DNA from: an uncultured Caulobacteraceae bacterium
GTDB taxonomy: Bacteria > Pseudomonadota > Alphaproteobacteria > Caulobacterales > Caulobacteraceae
DNA: 34,553 nucleotides
Assembly (NCBI GenBank): GCA_903929535.1
Contig: CAIYVC010000075.1
Location: 1-34,553, forward strand
Reading direction: 5' to 3'
Positions 14,572 to 19,390 of this stretch are shown here, in pieces. Within the stretch, counting starts at the first letter, position 1, and each line of letters opens with the position of its first letter. The position numbers and the translations under genes were made by a program. The notes under the pieces are model-generated. The model was not told the DNA's origin. It saw nothing but the letters and a program-made list of their open reading frames with translations, and searched no databases.

Positions 14572-14966
14572 GACCGTTCGACCAGCCGGCCGTCCTGATA
14601 GACACGGTAGAAGCAGGAGCGCGCGCCCGTGTGGCAGGCGCCGCCGTCGCCCTGGGGCGACACCTTGATCCAGATCGCGTCCTGATCGCAGTCGATGCTC
14701 AGTTCGTGCACGATCTGGATCTGGCCGGAGGTCTCACCCTTCTTCCACAGCGCATTGCGTGACCGGCTGAAGTAGTGGGCCTCGCCCGTCTCCAGCGTCA
14801 GCTTCAGCGCCTCGGCGTTCATCCACGCCAGCATCAGCACCTCGCCGGTGTCGGCGTGGGTCGCCACGCAGGCCACAAGCCCGTTGGCGTCGAAGCGCGG
14901 GGTGATCGCCGGGCCATGCTCGAGCGCGGCCTTGTCGCCGGGAGGAGGGAAGGGGGATGTGGTCAT
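14568..14966 (-). CDS. hisI: Phosphoribosyl-AMP cyclohydrolase
   Basis: Third step of histidine synthesis: opens the adenine ring of phosphoribosyl-AMP using bound zinc and magnesium. The core [37 protein letters not shown], the Mg site CDQDAIW and the zinc site [14 protein letters not shown] are intact. The gene encodes only the cyclohydrolase, with no fused HisE. The ATG at 14966 is chosen because the family starts shortly before this core. It sits apart from other his genes and overlaps rluD by four bases (GTGA). Confidence 0.95.
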
Positions 14967-15061
14967 GAGGCTATAGGTAGACCGGATGGGCGGGACTTGC
15001 TCGAATTTCCTCAAAGGTTCAGGCAAAACGAACCGCCGATGATCTGGAGCGTTTGCAGGTC

Positions 15062-15439
15062 ATGAAAGCTTCCGCCCTCGTTCTGTTCGCCGTCCTGACC
15101 GCAGCGCCGATCGTCAGTCGCGCCGCCGACGCGCCGCCCGCCAATGTCAAAGCCGCGTTCCGTAATACCTTCCTGACCATCGATTCCGACGGACGGACAC
15201 GAAAAATCTGGCTGGAGCCCGACGGCTCCTGGACGGGCAAGAGCCGACGCGGGCTGGACCTGGCCGGAAAGTGGAAAATGAATGGCGAGAAGCTGTGCTT
15301 GAGCCAGTCAAAGCCCGCCCTGCCTATCGACCTGTGTCAGACGCTCCCCAACGATCTCAAACTGGGCGGCCCTGCGGTGAGCGATTCTTCGAACAAGACC
15401 GGCCAGCTCAAGCTCGTCAAAGGCCGCGACGCCAACTAG
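15062..15439 (+). CDS. Secreted hypothetical protein
   Basis: A 125-residue protein with a signal peptide (MKASALVLFAVLTAAPIVSRAADA, cleavage near ADA). The mature part is a small predicted beta-rich domain (TIDSDGRTRKIWLEPDGSW, LAGKWKMNGEKLCLSQ) with two cysteines (LCLSQ, DLCQT) that could pair. No known family is recognised. It diverges from hisI with about 95 bases between them. A GGAG lies 12 bases before the chosen ATG; a TTG at 15053 is closer to it but would extend the signal peptide oddly. Confidence 0.65.
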   Translation: MKASALVLFAVLTAAPIVSRAADAPPANVKAAFRNTFLTIDSDGRTRKIWLEPDGSWTGKSRRGLDLAGKWKMNGEKLCLSQSKPALPIDLCQTLPNDLKLGGPAVSDSSNKTGQLKLVKGRDAN

Positions 15440-15445
15440 GGCGTC

Positions 15446-15463
15446 GACAGCGGCTTGGCTGTC
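15446..15463. terminator. Hairpin between convergent genes
   Basis: GACAGC and GCTGTC form a 6-bp stem around GGCTTG in the 31-base gap between two converging genes. It is short and lacks a clean T-run in either direction, so terminator function is only suggested by position. Confidence 0.3.
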
Positions 15464-15470
15464 CTCTGGT

Positions 15471-15947
15471 CTAGCCCGCCTTCGCGGGACGCCGGCGGCG
15501 CGGAACGCGGACCGTCGCTTCGCCGTCCATGATCATGTCCTCGCCCACGAAGCCTTCGCACGTCAGGACGACCCGCGCCGCCGCCTCATCGATCGTCGCG
15601 ACGGTCACGCGCGCCAGGACGACATCGCCGATGCGGACCGGTTTGTGGAAATTCAGCGTCTGGCTCAGGTAGATCGCGCCCGCGCCGGGCAGGATCGTGC
15701 CGACCACTGCCGAGCCGAACGACGCCGACAGCAGCCCGTGCGCGATCCGCCCGCGATAGGCGGTCTTGGAGGCGAACGCCTCGTCCATATGCACGGGATT
15801 GAAGTCGTCCGAGGCTTCGGCGAAGGCTCCGATGCGCTGCTCGGTGACGGTGACTCGCTTCTCGGCGGTCATGCCGACAGCCAGCTCCTCCAGGATGTAC
15901 CCGCCCGACGGATGGGGCTCGATCATGTGGAGGGGGGATGTGCTCAT
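15471..15947 (-). CDS. MaoC-like (R)-specific enoyl-CoA hydratase family protein
   Basis: A 158-residue hot-dog-fold protein. The hydratase-2 signature DDFNPVHMDEAFASKTAYRGRIAHGLL holds the catalytic Asp and His, and LSQTLNFHKPVRIGD is the typical later strand. Such enzymes hydrate trans-2-enoyl-CoA to (R)-3-hydroxyacyl-CoA (PhaJ-like, feeding PHA or fatty-acid metabolism); the substrate here is not decided. The start could be ATG 15947 or ATG 15926 (MIEPHPSG). It is preceded by the strong terminator of the glycine-zipper gene, so it has its own promoter. Confidence 0.9.
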   Translation of the reverse strand: MSTSPLHMIEPHPSGGYILEELAVGMTAEKRVTVTEQRIGAFAEASDDFNPVHMDEAFASKTAYRGRIAHGLLSASFGSAVVGTILPGAGAIYLSQTLNFHKPVRIGDVVLARVTVATIDEAAARVVLTCEGFVGEDMIMDGEATVRVPRRRRPAKAG

Positions 15948-16008
15948 GCCCCTAGTTAGCCCGGCCGGGCCCAATCACAAACCCGTCGCCACAAACCCGG
16001 CAAGCGAA

Positions 16009-16038
16009 AGGAGGCCCGGACGAGTGTCCGGACCTCCT
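16009..16038 (-). terminator. Rho-independent-like terminator of the glycine-zipper gene
   Basis: AGGAGG-C-CCGGAC, loop GAGT, GTCCGG-A-CCTCCT: a 12-bp stem with a single internal mismatch. On the minus strand it is followed by TTTCGCTTG. It lies 40 bases past the stop of the minus-strand glycine-zipper gene, where a terminator is expected. Confidence 0.8.
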
Positions 16039-16078
16039 CTGTTTCGTCTTTGGATGACCGCCGAAGCGGCCGCTCCAA

Positions 16079-16531
16079 CTAGTTGTGGGCGGAAGCCGCC
16101 CCGGCGACAGCGCCCGTGCCGCCGCCGATGGCCGCGCCGGCCGCCGCGCCCGGGGCGCAGCCGATCGGAAGCGTCACGAGACAGCCGATGGCCGCGCCGA
16201 TACCGGCGCCCGTCGCGCCGCCCGACACCGCGCGCGCGGCCGGATCGGCATGCCACTCGCCGCGCATATAGTAGCCGCGGTCATTGGCCGGGTCGTCGCG
16301 CCAGTGGATGCGCTCGTCGGTGCGGTGGGTCTCGTACCAATCGCCATTGTAATAGGTGATCGGCGCGGCGGCCCCGTAGGCGTAGCGGTTGTGCACGCGC
16401 CAGCAATCGCCGTCGGCGTTACAGGCGACGTAGGTCGATCCCTGGGCGCTGGCGACCGTCGGCACAGTCGAGCTTGCGGCCATGATGGCCAGGAACGAAC
16501 TCAGTCCCAATGCAGTCTTGATGATCTTCAT
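16079..16531 (-). CDS. Secreted glycine-zipper protein
   Basis: A 150-residue exported protein. The signal peptide spans residues 1-30 (MKIIKTALGLSSFLAIMAA to VASA). The next part is polar and aromatic (YYNGDWYETHRTDERIHWRDD), and the C-terminal ~45 residues form a glycine zipper (GGATGAGIGAAIG, then GAAAGAAIGGGTGAVAGAA), a membrane-associating motif found in envelope proteins. Four cysteines could form disulfides. The ATG at 16531 is chosen because it starts the signal peptide and AAGAGG precedes it. Function is unknown; envelope localisation is inferred. Confidence 0.85.
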   Translation of the reverse strand: MKIIKTALGLSSFLAIMAASSTVPTVASAQGSTYVACNADGDCWRVHNRYAYGAAAPITYYNGDWYETHRTDERIHWRDDPANDRGYYMRGEWHADPAARAVSGGATGAGIGAAIGCLVTLPIGCAPGAAAGAAIGGGTGAVAGAASAHN

Positions 16532-16642
16532 GGCGTGACCTCTTTTGCGATGGGCAGCAGGCGCGCCAGCCATCCGATCTGCAACAAACGAGGGCCAAGG
16601 ACCTTGGTTCCAACAAGACATGGCGGGAGCCCGACTTACCCA

Positions 16643-16678
16643 CCGCTCATCCCGGCGACGGCCGGGACCCAGATCATA
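16643..16678 (+). repeat. Palindromic repeat, copy A (36 bp)
   Basis: A 36-base unit: a head CCGCTCAT, a hairpin core CCCGGCGACGGCCGGG and a tail ACCCAGATCATA. It differs from copies B and C only in two bases of the loop (CG for AT), and lies in the same orientation as copy B. It is about 100 bases before the orphan gene at 16777. Confidence 0.9.
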
Positions 16679-16776
16679 TGGCGCGGAGGTCTACTTTCGA
16701 CCCATCTCGGACGCTGGGAAGGGCTGCTTTCCGGAAGCGAGCCACTCAACTACCTTTGACGCGGCGGGAGATGCCG

Positions 16777-17145
16777 ATGTTCGGGTTGTTCAAAAAGAAA
16801 GCTGGGGCGTCGGGCCTTCAACCCGAGAGCAAGTGGTTGCTGTCCATCAACGGCCAGATGATTACCGTGACCGACGCTAAAGGGCAGGTCTCTTCAATCA
16901 GCGACGCTGACCTCACAGGCATTGCCATAGAGACAAATGACAGTGGGCCGTGGGGCATCGATTTTTGGTGGCTGCTATTTGGTCCGGAGGACAAGTTGGC
17001 CTGCGCCTTTCCCCAAGGCGCTACCGGCGAGTCCGAGATATTTGGATATCTAAAGGGGTTGTCAGATGTCGATTACGACCACATGAAAAAGGCCATGAGC
17101 TCGACGCAGAATGCTGTGTTCGCGGTTTGGCGGAAACCTGCTTAG
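16777..17145 (+). CDS. Orphan hypothetical protein in AT-richer DNA
   Basis: A 122-residue protein beginning MFGLFKKK, with GGGAG six bases upstream of the ATG at 16777 (16771 is an alternative). It looks like a small soluble alpha/beta domain: WLLSINGQMITVTDAKGQ, DLTGIAIETNDSGPWG, DFWWLLFGPEDKLACAFPQG, AVFAVWRK. There is no signal peptide or membrane segment, and no known motif. Base composition is visibly less GC-rich than the core genes. It may belong to a conserved hypothetical family, but I cannot name one. The setting (repeat copy A before it, a gene remnant after it) suggests an accessory gene. Confidence 0.75.
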   Translation: MFGLFKKKAGASGLQPESKWLLSINGQMITVTDAKGQVSSISDADLTGIAIETNDSGPWGIDFWWLLFGPEDKLACAFPQGATGESEIFGYLKGLSDVDYDHMKKAMSSTQNAVFAVWRKPA

Positions 17146-17193
17146 ACCGCTCCCCACCCATAGTCGACACCACGCCTGCTCGTGATGGTCCCT

Positions 17194-17396
17194 CTAGTTC
17201 TTCATGCATGGACCGGGGCGGAATGTAGCTTCCTTCACCCGGGCCGCACCGGCGTCATTGCCGTAAGGCGGATCGCCTAACTTTACGACATACAGACACT
17301 GATTTTGCCTAACGAAGGCCATAGCGCAGTAGTCCGAGCCAGCACCCGCGCATGACTCAATCTCGGGGAAGTGATCTTCCCCCGAATTAGTGGACG
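17194..17396 (-). pseudogene. 3' remnant of an unidentified gene
   Basis: An open frame of about 65 codons that abuts the end of the hydrolase gene in a different frame and has no plausible start of its own at the junction; the only ATG inside leaves 42 codons. The peptide (GSDYCAMAFVRQNQCLYVVK, then GDPPYGNDAGAARVKEATFR) reads like the cysteine-containing C-terminal end of a real protein. DNA here is AT-richer than the core. I interpret it as the tail of a gene whose 5' part was lost in a deletion that also clipped the hydrolase. The family is not recognised. Confidence 0.4.
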
Positions 17397-18127
17397 TCCC
17401 AGTGCGGAAAATGGCCGGAGTTTTCGAACCAATGGAGCTGAGCCTTGGGGAAGGCGGCCTGAGCACGATGGGCTTGGCGGGGCAGGAGCAGGCGATCCTG
17501 GCGGCCCCAGCCAATCGTCACACGCCCGGGCGTGATATCCATTCCGGCCTGCAAGGGGCCAGTCGCCAGCTCGTGCACGACGTCGTCAAACACCCGCGTG
17601 GCGGAGAAGGTCTTCATCTCCGTCAGGACCACATCCGGCGCGAGCGCCCAAGGCCTGTTGGACAGCTGGGCCAACAGCAGTGTCCGGGTGATCGCATGCC
17701 GTGACAGGAACGGCATCACGGGCTGGAGCCCTCGGACCAGCTTGATGGACGCTCCAATGGTGGTCTGGAAAAACCGCGTCTCCCAGCCTTGCCAGAACCC
17801 GCCTGGATCCAGCGCTACACAATTGCCTCCGACGCCGCGACGGGACAGCTCCAGCACCAAGCGGGCGCCCACGGAACTGCCGACCAAATCCACCGCGCCA
17901 AGCCCCTCACTTTGGATGAAGTCGGTAAGAGCGTCGGCGAAGGCGGAAATGCTTTGCCGTCCCGGCACTGGCGGCGAGCGCCCATGTCCGGGCATGTCGA
18001 TGAGGACCAATTCACGAGAGCGGCTAAGCGCCGGCGCGATCGTGTCCCACGACCGTATGCTTCCACCTAGGCCGTGGACCATGAGCAGGCGAGGTCCCTC
18101 GCCTATGCGTTCAGAATGCAAAACCAT
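17387..18127 (-). CDS. Alpha/beta hydrolase, apparently clipped at the C-terminus
   Basis: A 246-residue alpha/beta-hydrolase: oxyanion region MVHGLGGSIRSWD, nucleophile elbow VGSSVGA (Ser85), acid in GRQDRLLLP (Asp211) and catalytic His239 in SGHFPHW. The catalytic triad is therefore complete. The protein stops four residues after HFPHW, whereas relatives usually continue for 12-20 residues through a final helix. The last residues (DVH) may come from junction DNA. The substrate is unknown. It is probably still foldable, but may be a damaged gene. It is divergent from the gene at 18285. Confidence 0.8.
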   Translation of the reverse strand: MVLHSERIGEGPRLLMVHGLGGSIRSWDTIAPALSRSRELVLIDMPGHGRSPPVPGRQSISAFADALTDFIQSEGLGAVDLVGSSVGARLVLELSRRGVGGNCVALDPGGFWQGWETRFFQTTIGASIKLVRGLQPVMPFLSRHAITRTLLLAQLSNRPWALAPDVVLTEMKTFSATRVFDDVVHELATGPLQAGMDITPGRVTIGWGRQDRLLLPRQAHRAQAAFPKAQLHWFENSGHFPHWDVH

Positions 18128-18284
18128 ACCGACACAACGACGCCTTGATGCGGCGGTTCAATTCAAACGCGAGTACGCGCAAATGAGCTGGATTTTGGGA
18201 GGTGAAGTCCGCTTTCCACCCTTCGCCGCCATTCCCTTCGCGTCTTGATATCCAAAAAGACTCAGTTCATGATTTGTTCCAAAC

Positions 18285-18998
18285 ATGAGCATTGAAACCC
18301 CTCCCATTCCCGAACCGGCCCCAGACTCCGACTGGGCGCGCCCGCTCATCGAGCGGCAGCTTGCGCTGCTGGGCCGTCTGGCTGAGGCGGGACTGGAGAT
18401 CGCCCTGGCTGTCGAGCGCCAGGCAACCGGGCAGCAGGCCCAAGATGAAGCGCCTGTGGCCGCCGACGTGTCGCTCGCCTACGCCCGCGTCTCGCGCGCC
18501 GTGCGCCTGACCGTGGCGCTGCAGTCCAAGCGCATTGAGGCCCTTCAGGCCCTGGAGTCCGGCGCGGTCTCGGCGCGGGATGAAGCGCAGGACATCGCCC
18601 GTCGTCTCACCCCCGAATACGGCCGCAAGGCCCGCGTCGAGCGGATCGTCGAGCGCGTCATCAAGACCGAATACGAGAAGGCCGACGCCGAAGAGATCGA
18701 GGAAACCCTCGACCGCATGCTCATCGAGGCCGGCGAACGGCTGGACGACGAAGATCAGTACGGCGACGTGCTGGACCGGCCCCTGAGCGAACTGGTCGCC
18801 GACATCTGCCGCGACCTCGGCCTCAAGCCCGACTGGTCGGTCCTGTCCCAGGAGCCCTGGGCCGTGGCGGAACTCGAAAGCGGGGAGATAGGAGCGCCAC
18901 TGTCCAAGTTAGAGCCAGCTTTCCCCCTCGATGCCGCTCGACCACCACCCCAAATCCGCTCATCCCGGCGAATGCCGGGACCCAGATCATATGGCTGA
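18285..18998 (+). CDS. Helical hypothetical protein with a repeat-encoded C-terminal tail
   Basis: A 237-residue, charge-rich, mostly helical protein of unknown function (RPLIERQLALLGRLAEAGLE, IARRLTPEYGRKARVERIVE, EEIEETLDRMLIEAGERLDD). No signal peptide, membrane segment or catalytic motif is visible; the character suggests a cytoplasmic coiled or DNA-associated protein. The last 13 residues (RSSRRMPGPRSYG) are translated from palindromic repeat copy B, and the ~20 residues before that are low-complexity, so the native end was probably near GEIGAPL. The start has only a weak ribosome site. Confidence 0.75.
   Translation: MSIETPPIPEPAPDSDWARPLIERQLALLGRLAEAGLEIALAVERQATGQQAQDEAPVAADVSLAYARVSRAVRLTVALQSKRIEALQALESGAVSARDEAQDIARRLTPEYGRKARVERIVERVIKTEYEKADAEEIEETLDRMLIEAGERLDDEDQYGDVLDRPLSELVADICRDLGLKPDWSVLSQEPWAVAELESGEIGAPLSKLEPAFPLDAARPPPQIRSSRRMPGPRSYG
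18956..18991 (+). repeat. Palindromic repeat, copy B (36 bp, left arm)
   Basis: A 36-base unit with the core hairpin CCCGGC-GAAT-GCCGGG, head CCGCTCAT and tail ACCCAGATCATA. It is an exact inverted match to copy C (19316-19351). It overlaps the 3' end of the upstream gene and ends 15 bases before the GIY-YIG start codon. Confidence 0.95.
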
Positions 18999-19006
18999 AC
19001 CGCCAA

Positions 19007-19354
19007 GTGAGTTTCTACGTCTACACCGTCGCCAGTGGCCGCAACGGTACGATCTACGTCGGGTCGACCGACAATCTTTCGCGCCGCGTCTGGCAGCATA
19101 AGACCAAGGCCTGTTCAGGCTTCTCCAAAACCCATGGCTACGACCAGCTCGTCTGGTTCGAAAGCTTGTCGTCTCGCCAAAACGCCTTCAGCCGCGAGCG
19201 CCGCATCAAGGAATGGCGGCGCAGCTGGAAGCTGTTGCTGATCGAGGAGGAGAACCCCAGCTGGCGCGATCTTTATGAGGAGTTGAACGGAGCCCCCGAC
19301 CCAGACGGCCCGCTTTATGATCTGGGTCCCGGCATTCGCCGGGATGAGCGGTAG
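19007..19354 (+). CDS. Small GIY-YIG nuclease family protein
   Basis: A 115-residue single-domain protein of the GIY-YIG superfamily (UPF0213/YhbQ-like; often mislabelled excinuclease subunit C). The GIY-YIG halves are FYVYTVAS and GTIYVGSTDNLSRR, with the catalytic Arg in SRRVWQHK. The metal-binding Glu is in the helix FSRERRIKEWRRSW, and EEENPSWRDLYEEL is the usual end of the family. A further ~25 residues follow, the last 12 (YDLGPGIRRDER) encoded by repeat copy C. The start is GTG with little ribosome-site match. No DNA-binding add-on domain is present. Confidence 0.9.
   Translation: MSFYVYTVASGRNGTIYVGSTDNLSRRVWQHKTKACSGFSKTHGYDQLVWFESLSSRQNAFSRERRIKEWRRSWKLLLIEEENPSWRDLYEELNGAPDPDGPLYDLGPGIRRDER
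19316..19351 (-). repeat. Palindromic repeat, copy C (36 bp, right arm)
   Basis: Exact reverse complement of copy B. It forms the last 12 codons of the GIY-YIG gene, whose stop lies at 19352-19354. The core is again a CCCGGC/GCCGGG hairpin with a four-base loop. Confidence 0.95.
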
Positions 19355-19390
19355 GTGGGGGCCCTGAAAGAGCCGGACGCATCCTCCAGG

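Follow-up and report, generated by a model that had tools for sequence, protein, structure and literature searches.

A small gene for a GIY-YIG nuclease lies between two inverted copies of one palindrome in the window (the whole stretch of DNA that was analysed, 34,553 nucleotides), and the question that this locus raises is whether gene and palindromes form a mobile unit whose nuclease acts on its own ends. The module is a 396-bp unit (18956-19351), which consists of a palindrome, 15 bases, the gene and the palindrome again, inverted. The left arm (18956-18991, plus strand) and the right arm (19316-19351, minus strand) are 36 nt each, are 100% complementary with 324 nt between them, and both have the head pointing outward. 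The gene (19007-19354, plus strand), identified as an open reading frame with a Pfam match, is stand-alone, begins with GTG 15 bases after the left arm and encodes 115 amino acids; the right arm overlaps its 3' end and provides the final 12 codons, which are followed by TAG at 19352. From base composition, the expected number of such 36-bp pairs at distances of up to 400 bp is about 1e-13, and both chance and an artefact are rejected as explanations of the perfect arm pair. The sequence-only reading had described this anatomy (two perfect 36-bp inverted copies around a 115-codon GIY-YIG gene, the 15-base gap, the GTG, the right arm as last codons), and it held exactly. The third nearby copy that it had placed apart from the gene held as well: it is a solo palindrome (16643-16678, plus strand), identical at 34 of 36 positions, with no partner and no adjoining nuclease.

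The module lies between genes. The gene downstream, folE (GTP cyclohydrolase I), is convergent with it, and upstream an unknown ORF (18285-18998) runs through the left arm. This ORF has partial matches (79-81%) elsewhere in the same genome, at G000:C147:113-463 and G000:C161:2-266, one of them on the contig that carries the truncated second module described below.

In its minimum-energy structure, a single arm folds into a stem of 7 bp (18963-18969 with 18974-18980 in the left arm) closed by a loop of 4 nt (18970-18973), and leaves unpaired the head CCGCTCA and the tail CCCAGATCATA. This layout is close to that of the CGTC REPs defined by Di Nocera et al. in 2013, who counted C. crescentus among the hosts (PMC3733652). 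CGTC REPs have a short stem-loop with a loop of 4-5 nt, an unpaired head and a CCA tail, and they occur mostly as inverted dimers. They are found mostly in Alphaproteobacteria and include the dRS3 repeats of Neisseria and two RPE families of Rickettsia conorii; no transposase genes are associated with them, and a dedicated transposase is apparently missing (PMC3733652). The tail of the window palindrome, CCCAG, contains CCA and its loop has the expected 4 nt, but the stem has 7 bp instead of 8-9, the palindromes bound a GIY-YIG gene, and the head reads GCTC where the class has CGTC, TGTC or CCTC. Several relatives have arms that do read CGTC or TGTC.

The other known system of comparison is the RAYT REPtron, which is built on GTAG REPs (PMC3733652). 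The two have in common a small nuclease gene between REPs, gene-less dimers and a patchy distribution, and the window module meets the defining arrangement of a gene framed by inverted REPs that are also dispersed in the genome. They differ in that the protein is a GIY-YIG and not an HUH/tyrosine enzyme, and that the palindromes are CGTC-like, without a GTAG tag (the head is CCGCTCA). The term GIY-YIG does not occur in PMC3733652, and no paper linking GIY-YIG nucleases to REP, RAYT, dRS3, REPIN or CGTC repeats was found in the literature searched, which lacks most subscription papers.

The 115-aa protein matches the Pfam family GIY-YIG PF01541 (E 4.7e-13, 49.7 bits for a cut-off of 22.6), which is its sole domain match; in NCBIfam the only match, TIGR01453, is below threshold (22.5 bits for a cut-off of 56). 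In an alignment of 28 proteins including a homologue from the gonococcus, Y6, G14, Y17, R27, H31, E64, K68 and N83, among others, are invariant. Some of these residues are catalytic in GIY-YIG enzymes. The alignment was made without L073 and L055, which have in-frame stops, and without L053, which was left out by our own choice and not flagged; the ends of L020, L024, L034 and L047 were trimmed. The AlphaFold2 prediction has a mean pLDDT of 79.6; for the most part it is confident over residues 1-90, though less so at 31-50, and the tail encoded by the right arm is disordered in it. The nearest solved structures are 1zg2 (the UPF0213 protein BH0048, E 8e-5) and Slx1 (E 6e-3), which resemble the protein in fold but have little identity to it in sequence (20-28% for the top hits); a sequence search of the PDB was dominated by beta-propeller and designed proteins.

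Other kinds of element were considered for the module. A homing intron is rejected: the gene is intergenic, no conserved gene is interrupted and TIGR01453 stays below its cut-off. For a classical IS or MITE, no transposase domain was found in the module protein and no target-site duplication was seen. Finally, no vehicle was identified for phage or plasmid cargo: the search returned one weak phage record and 35 plasmid records, which range in size from 70 kb to 4.9 Mb and of which 34 are typed as non-mobilizable. The records filed as plasmids in PLSDB include two of 2.17 Mb from Neisseria gonorrhoeae (NZ_CP119140.1 and NZ_CP119142.1), which judging by their size are likely chromosomes.

The genome of the window is a draft of 3.02 Mb in 172 contigs. 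The pattern CCCGGCN4GCCGGGACCCA has 10 exact sites in it, and the reversed control has none. They are dispersed and often form inverted dimers, as do CGTC REPs: besides the module and three solo copies (L002, L003 and L005, the last being 16643-16678 of the window) there are four inverted doublets (L001, L004, L008 and L010) spaced 58-96 bp start to start. At L009, the start of the same nuclease gene comes after the palindrome, and the sequence then breaks off. L009 and the module align without gaps over 100 bp from the first base of the arm, and L009 is therefore a second, truncated module at another locus. What departs from chance is the long arms and the whole-genome counts, not the bare core: within the window, the 16-nt core with up to three mismatches has 3 matches for 2.19 expected, neither rarer nor commoner than chance.

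The arms were then sought around relatives of the nuclease. In a survey of one genome per species (84,980 species), 139 stretches matched the query peptides and 106 of them encode a relative; the best 80 of these were analysed, with 29 testable loci from relatives' genomes, the window locus included. Arms were called matched when the 300-bp flanks on either side of the gene shared an ungapped inverted match scoring at least 20 (+1/-2). They were found at 36 of 80 and 16 of 29 loci, compared to 1 of 430 and 0 of 56 shifted windows. After removal of duplicates, 50 of 105 distinct loci from several phyla, the window included, have matched arms (1 of 486 for the pooled shifted windows), and the other 55 have none under the test used. 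This count leaves out L148, with a flank below 100 bp, and the duplicates L127, L132, L142 and L137; L127, from G011 (of the same family as the window), is identical over 3285 bp to L015, which is on a public Caulobacter sp. S45 contig, and from this the window is inferred to belong to Caulobacteraceae. Duplicates were not removed from the shifted-window controls. When the left flank of one locus was paired with the right flank of another (200-bp flanks), 6 of 160 combinations reached a score of 20, which is what palindromes shared between related loci would produce. The reading frame is interrupted at two of the 50 arm-bearing loci (L055 and L079). On a plasmid of Rhizobium (L157), inspection by eye showed no palindrome pair immediately next to the gene, but an inverted pair at a greater distance downstream.

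The arms are lineage-specific. They read CGTCATTCCGGCGAAAGCCGGAATCCAG at L033 (a deltaproteobacterial bin), GTCATCCCCGACTTGATCGGGGATCC at L052 (Roseibium), CCGTCATGGCCGGGCTTGTCCCGGCCATCCACG at L088 (a Hyphomicrobiales bin) and CGTCATTGCGAGCGAAGCGAAGCAACCCAG at L078 (a Sphingomonadales bin), and they differ again at L062 (a Chloroflexi bin) and L041 (a Magasanikbacteria bin); the CGTC-type layout is kept, and the two arms of any one locus match. A simple motif test applied to the 50 arm-bearing loci classed the heads as outward at 29 and inward at 5, with 16 unclassified. Over these loci, the distance between arms follows the distance between proteins (Spearman Mantel r 0.41, reached in 0 of 5000 permutations, phylogeny uncorrected). 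The pairing of nuclease and palindrome lineage by lineage is shown as an association.

The ends of the unit are defined by close relatives. The alignment of the window with the locus of Caulobacter sp. S45 (L015) ends at the outermost base of each arm, with an offset of 0 at both loci. In G041 and G011, the DNA that matches this region covers 18955/18956-19351 of the window. The alignment of L015 with L126 begins within a base of the arm and extends about 15 bases beyond the far arm. For more distant pairs, in the part of the alignments examined, homology is mostly confined to the gene interior; sharp ends are therefore shown only for close relatives. In G011, the module and nine doublets share the ends CCGCTC...GAGCGG, and the 12 bases on either side look unrelated. 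No target-site duplication was visible by eye at the empty sites and doublets examined.

These results bear on an ordinary explanation, namely that the palindromes are terminators or regulatory hairpins that happen to surround a small intergenic gene. REPs are usually intergenic (PMC3733652), the right arm overlaps the gene end, and at a site in the genus g3 (see below) some genomes that lack the unit have other short hairpins. On the other hand, only 1 of 486 shifted windows of the same loci gives a match, the palindromes vary by lineage and yet match within a locus, and the homology of close relatives stops at the arms. We regard this explanation as very unlikely.

At the module's own site, the empty state is blurred by a larger segment. 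In L096 (same genus), L098 and L099, the part of the window that ends at about 14.90-14.96 kb lies next to folE (about 19388 onwards), the flanking genes being 93-206 bp apart; in L097 (G002, same genus) only the folE side was found. G001, G033 and G044 lack, in one block, the DNA from about 14957 to 19387, a segment of 4.4 kb that contains both the module and the solo copy of the palindrome. The module is missing together with this block, and its own insertion can therefore be neither isolated nor dated there. An empty site was sought in the genus of G011, and none of the three genomes available gave a clean one. The 4.4-kb segment also encodes MaoC-like and alpha/beta hydrolase proteins and unknown ORFs, and the site between the pseudouridine synthase gene and folE looks variable.

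Presence and absence of the unit can be compared at two other, orthologous sites. The first lies between fnrL and a response regulator on megaplasmids of Sphingobium, where 17 records match the query; the megaplasmids fetched all name one sampling place. Seven of the 17 match at full length (three of these were aligned), four have both flanks and are about 350 bp shorter, and the remaining six match one flank or arm-sized pieces only. In TomTYG64, the place of the module is taken by a single perfect palindrome, fused and double-headed, and TomTYG74 has a slightly changed version of it (AP027328.1 and AP027342.1 for the fused palindromes, L158 and L159). TomTYG72 and TomTYG65 have neither the module nor its palindrome at this site, where other short hairpin-like DNA is found. 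The fold of the fused form in TomTYG64 is much more stable than that of one arm (-18.2 compared to about -9 kcal/mol). The fused form corresponds to what a deletion between the copies of ACCCCGGG in the two arms would produce, though it may instead be an insertion target.

The second site, that of L143, is in the genus g3 (131 genomes), of which at least seven genomes have one full-length match. Twenty genomes, picked as informative and not at random, were inspected closely. In four, the module is present and flanked by its two arms (G203, G226, G239 and G229), and two (G250 and G292) have the nuclease and an adjoining doublet, the far arm being not detected or not fetched, so that two of the six nuclease-bearing sites do not show both arms. 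A doublet without nuclease is present in three genomes (G212, G264 and G141, the last with a divergent second arm seen by eye). Eleven of the 20 lack both nuclease and palindrome of this kind, and some of these have other DNA at the site, including other short hairpins; in G025 the empty state consists of only 15 bases between the flanks. It is thus shown for both orthologous sites, in Sphingobium and in g3, that the unit can be present, reduced to a doublet or a fused palindrome, or absent.

The palindrome of the window (X) and a second type (Y) were counted in 198 genomes of the order of the window. X is found in 25 and Y in 34 of them, and the reversed controls in none. The nuclease family is patchy, with a match in 124 of the 198 genomes, and homologues from other genera can be closer to the window protein than those from its own: G041 and G011, from other genera, are 68% and 65% identical, compared to 44-52% for G001 and G002 of the same genus. 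Among 118 genomes of the family of the window (its own genome excluded), 31 of the 33 with at least three X and Y palindromes taken together have a nuclease match, compared to 37 of the 85 with fewer (Fisher p 2e-7). Among nuclease carriers, the presence of at least five X palindromes goes with nucleases closer to that of the window (Mann-Whitney p 7e-5). The co-occurrence test is not corrected for phylogeny, and the thresholds of three and five copies were chosen after the counts had been seen. The two exceptions are G040, with 5 X palindromes, and G152, with 7, both without a nuclease match; they could be relics after loss of the nuclease, or the match could fall in draft gaps (G040 is 85% complete).

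Among the sites inspected, the seven inverted pairs spaced 150-1500 bp all enclose the nuclease (in G000, G011, G002, G019 and G136, and two in G102). At least 39 other inverted pairs have a start-to-start spacing of only 52-106 bp, which leaves no room for the gene. Both counts were made by eye and are lower bounds.

Another explanation is that the gene lives on REP doublets as a homing-type parasite: the doublets would spread by other means and have their interior invaded by the gene, and a full module would be a doublet with the gene added. The GIY-YIG fold is indeed a fold of homing endonucleases. Short doublets outnumber the long pairs that hold the gene (39 to 7 among the sites inspected), and G212 and G264 have doublets where G136 has a module. 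However, apart from the arm itself, doublets and module ends are hardly alike (at most 79 bp at 85%, counting the arm), and precise insertion of the gene into a doublet is therefore not seen. Moreover, palindrome-rich genomes (at least three X and Y) without nuclease are few, 2 of 33. This explanation is considered unlikely.

The sequence-only reading had proposed a mobile module, analogous to REP systems, in which a GIY-YIG nuclease recognises or disperses the palindrome. The module itself is supported, whereas the cutting or dispersal of the palindrome by the protein remains inferred. The states that it asked about were found at different loci (solo arms, full modules and empty orthologous sites), and doublets and the truncated second module were found as well. 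The enrichment of repeats at GIY-YIG genes held for this nuclease family, and so did the co-occurrence of nuclease subfamily and palindrome. None of the outcomes that it named as refuting (a repeat common genome-wide without enrichment at GIY-YIG genes, orthologous loci always holding the gene without arms, arms varying independently of the nuclease) was met, although more than half of the distinct loci lack matched arms under our test.

The most serious alternative comes from Neisseria. The gonococcal homologue is 43% identical to the window protein, and the 3.3 kb around it contain 16 dRS3-like palindromes, one of which begins 10 bases past the match. Chenal, Veyrier and colleagues (Nat Commun 2025) are reported to have described Ssn, a family of GIY-YIG nucleases that cut single-stranded DNA at specific sites and have cognate repeats in Neisseria, in a paper whose abstract reportedly concerns transformation and biotechnology. 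We take the gonococcal homologue to be the Ssn protein, and the window gene to belong to the family described under that name. The likeness lies in a small GIY-YIG domain that stands alone, has the conserved residues and shows homology to the protein of Neisseria, and in a genome repeat that goes with the nuclease, which is an association and not evidence of recognition. The nuclease could be a sequence-specific ssDNA nuclease that serves its host, with palindromes as targets which limit or steer natural transformation, while the unit would move passively by homologous recombination between shared palindromes. In favour of this possibility are the gonococcal homologue, embedded among many dRS3 copies and not in one clean pair, the association of nuclease and palindrome across genomes, and what the abstract of the Ssn paper reportedly says. 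Against it, the homology boundaries at the arms and the full, reduced and empty orthologous sites resemble the movement of a defined unit, and the distribution of the family is uneven, with a match in 124 of 198 relatives. It remains possible.

The reading that we prefer is that of a CGTC REPtron, in which inverted CGTC-class REPs are the ends of the unit and the GIY-YIG nuclease recognises its own palindrome. We lean towards it, with a probability of roughly 0.65, which the two nuclease-bearing g3 sites without evidence of both arms lower slightly; recognition, nicking and nuclease-driven spread are inferred, as there are no data on cutting or movement. According to the mechanism that seems most likely, the nuclease would bind the hairpin or the tag when the palindrome is single-stranded (on the lagging strand, during repair or during DNA uptake) and would nick it. 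Repair or copying of the nicked stretch would then move or duplicate the unit and, in trans, the gene-less doublets, and subsequent deletions would leave solo arms.

A bolder version of the CGTC REPtron would make stand-alone GIY-YIG nucleases the missing dedicated mobility enzymes of CGTC REPs across bacteria. The palindrome-nuclease-palindrome unit would be the autonomous element, the inverted doublets its non-autonomous derivatives and the solo REPs remnants, and the whole would form a second class of REPtron, with a catalytic fold unrelated to that of RAYT. The evidence weighs no more for this generalisation than against it. The Ssn paper probably ties GIY-YIG nucleases to cognate repeats already, and the claim to novelty is therefore limited to the CGTC-REPtron reading (sharp ends, gene-less doublets, and orthologous sites that are full, reduced or empty). 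How the widespread CGTC REPs spread was left open in 2013, and a nuclease that matches them lineage by lineage is a candidate for the missing partner. Should the nuclease prove to disperse its own palindrome, a means of spreading REPs would have arisen two or more times in evolution, each time with an unrelated enzyme. The joint travel of nuclease and matching palindrome also raises a question that the bench can address directly, since each species needs only a single small protein and a single short oligonucleotide.

Two further observations concern palindromes outside the module. G110 has 84 Y palindromes, and the 8 inverted pairs examined there, like the 5 in G103, all have a spacing of 59 bp; these pairs resemble a recently expanded non-autonomous element. 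The genome of the window also contains other GIY-YIG loci: the core palindrome pattern is absent from L012 within 2 substitutions, and L013 and L014 match it only with 2 substitutions. The gene of L013 (G000:C80:34498-34704), a different GIY-YIG gene, is framed by two repeats of 39 nt (L013 1406-1444 and 1749-1787), which are in direct orientation, 97% identical and partly self-complementary, and might constitute with it a second pairing of nuclease and palindrome.
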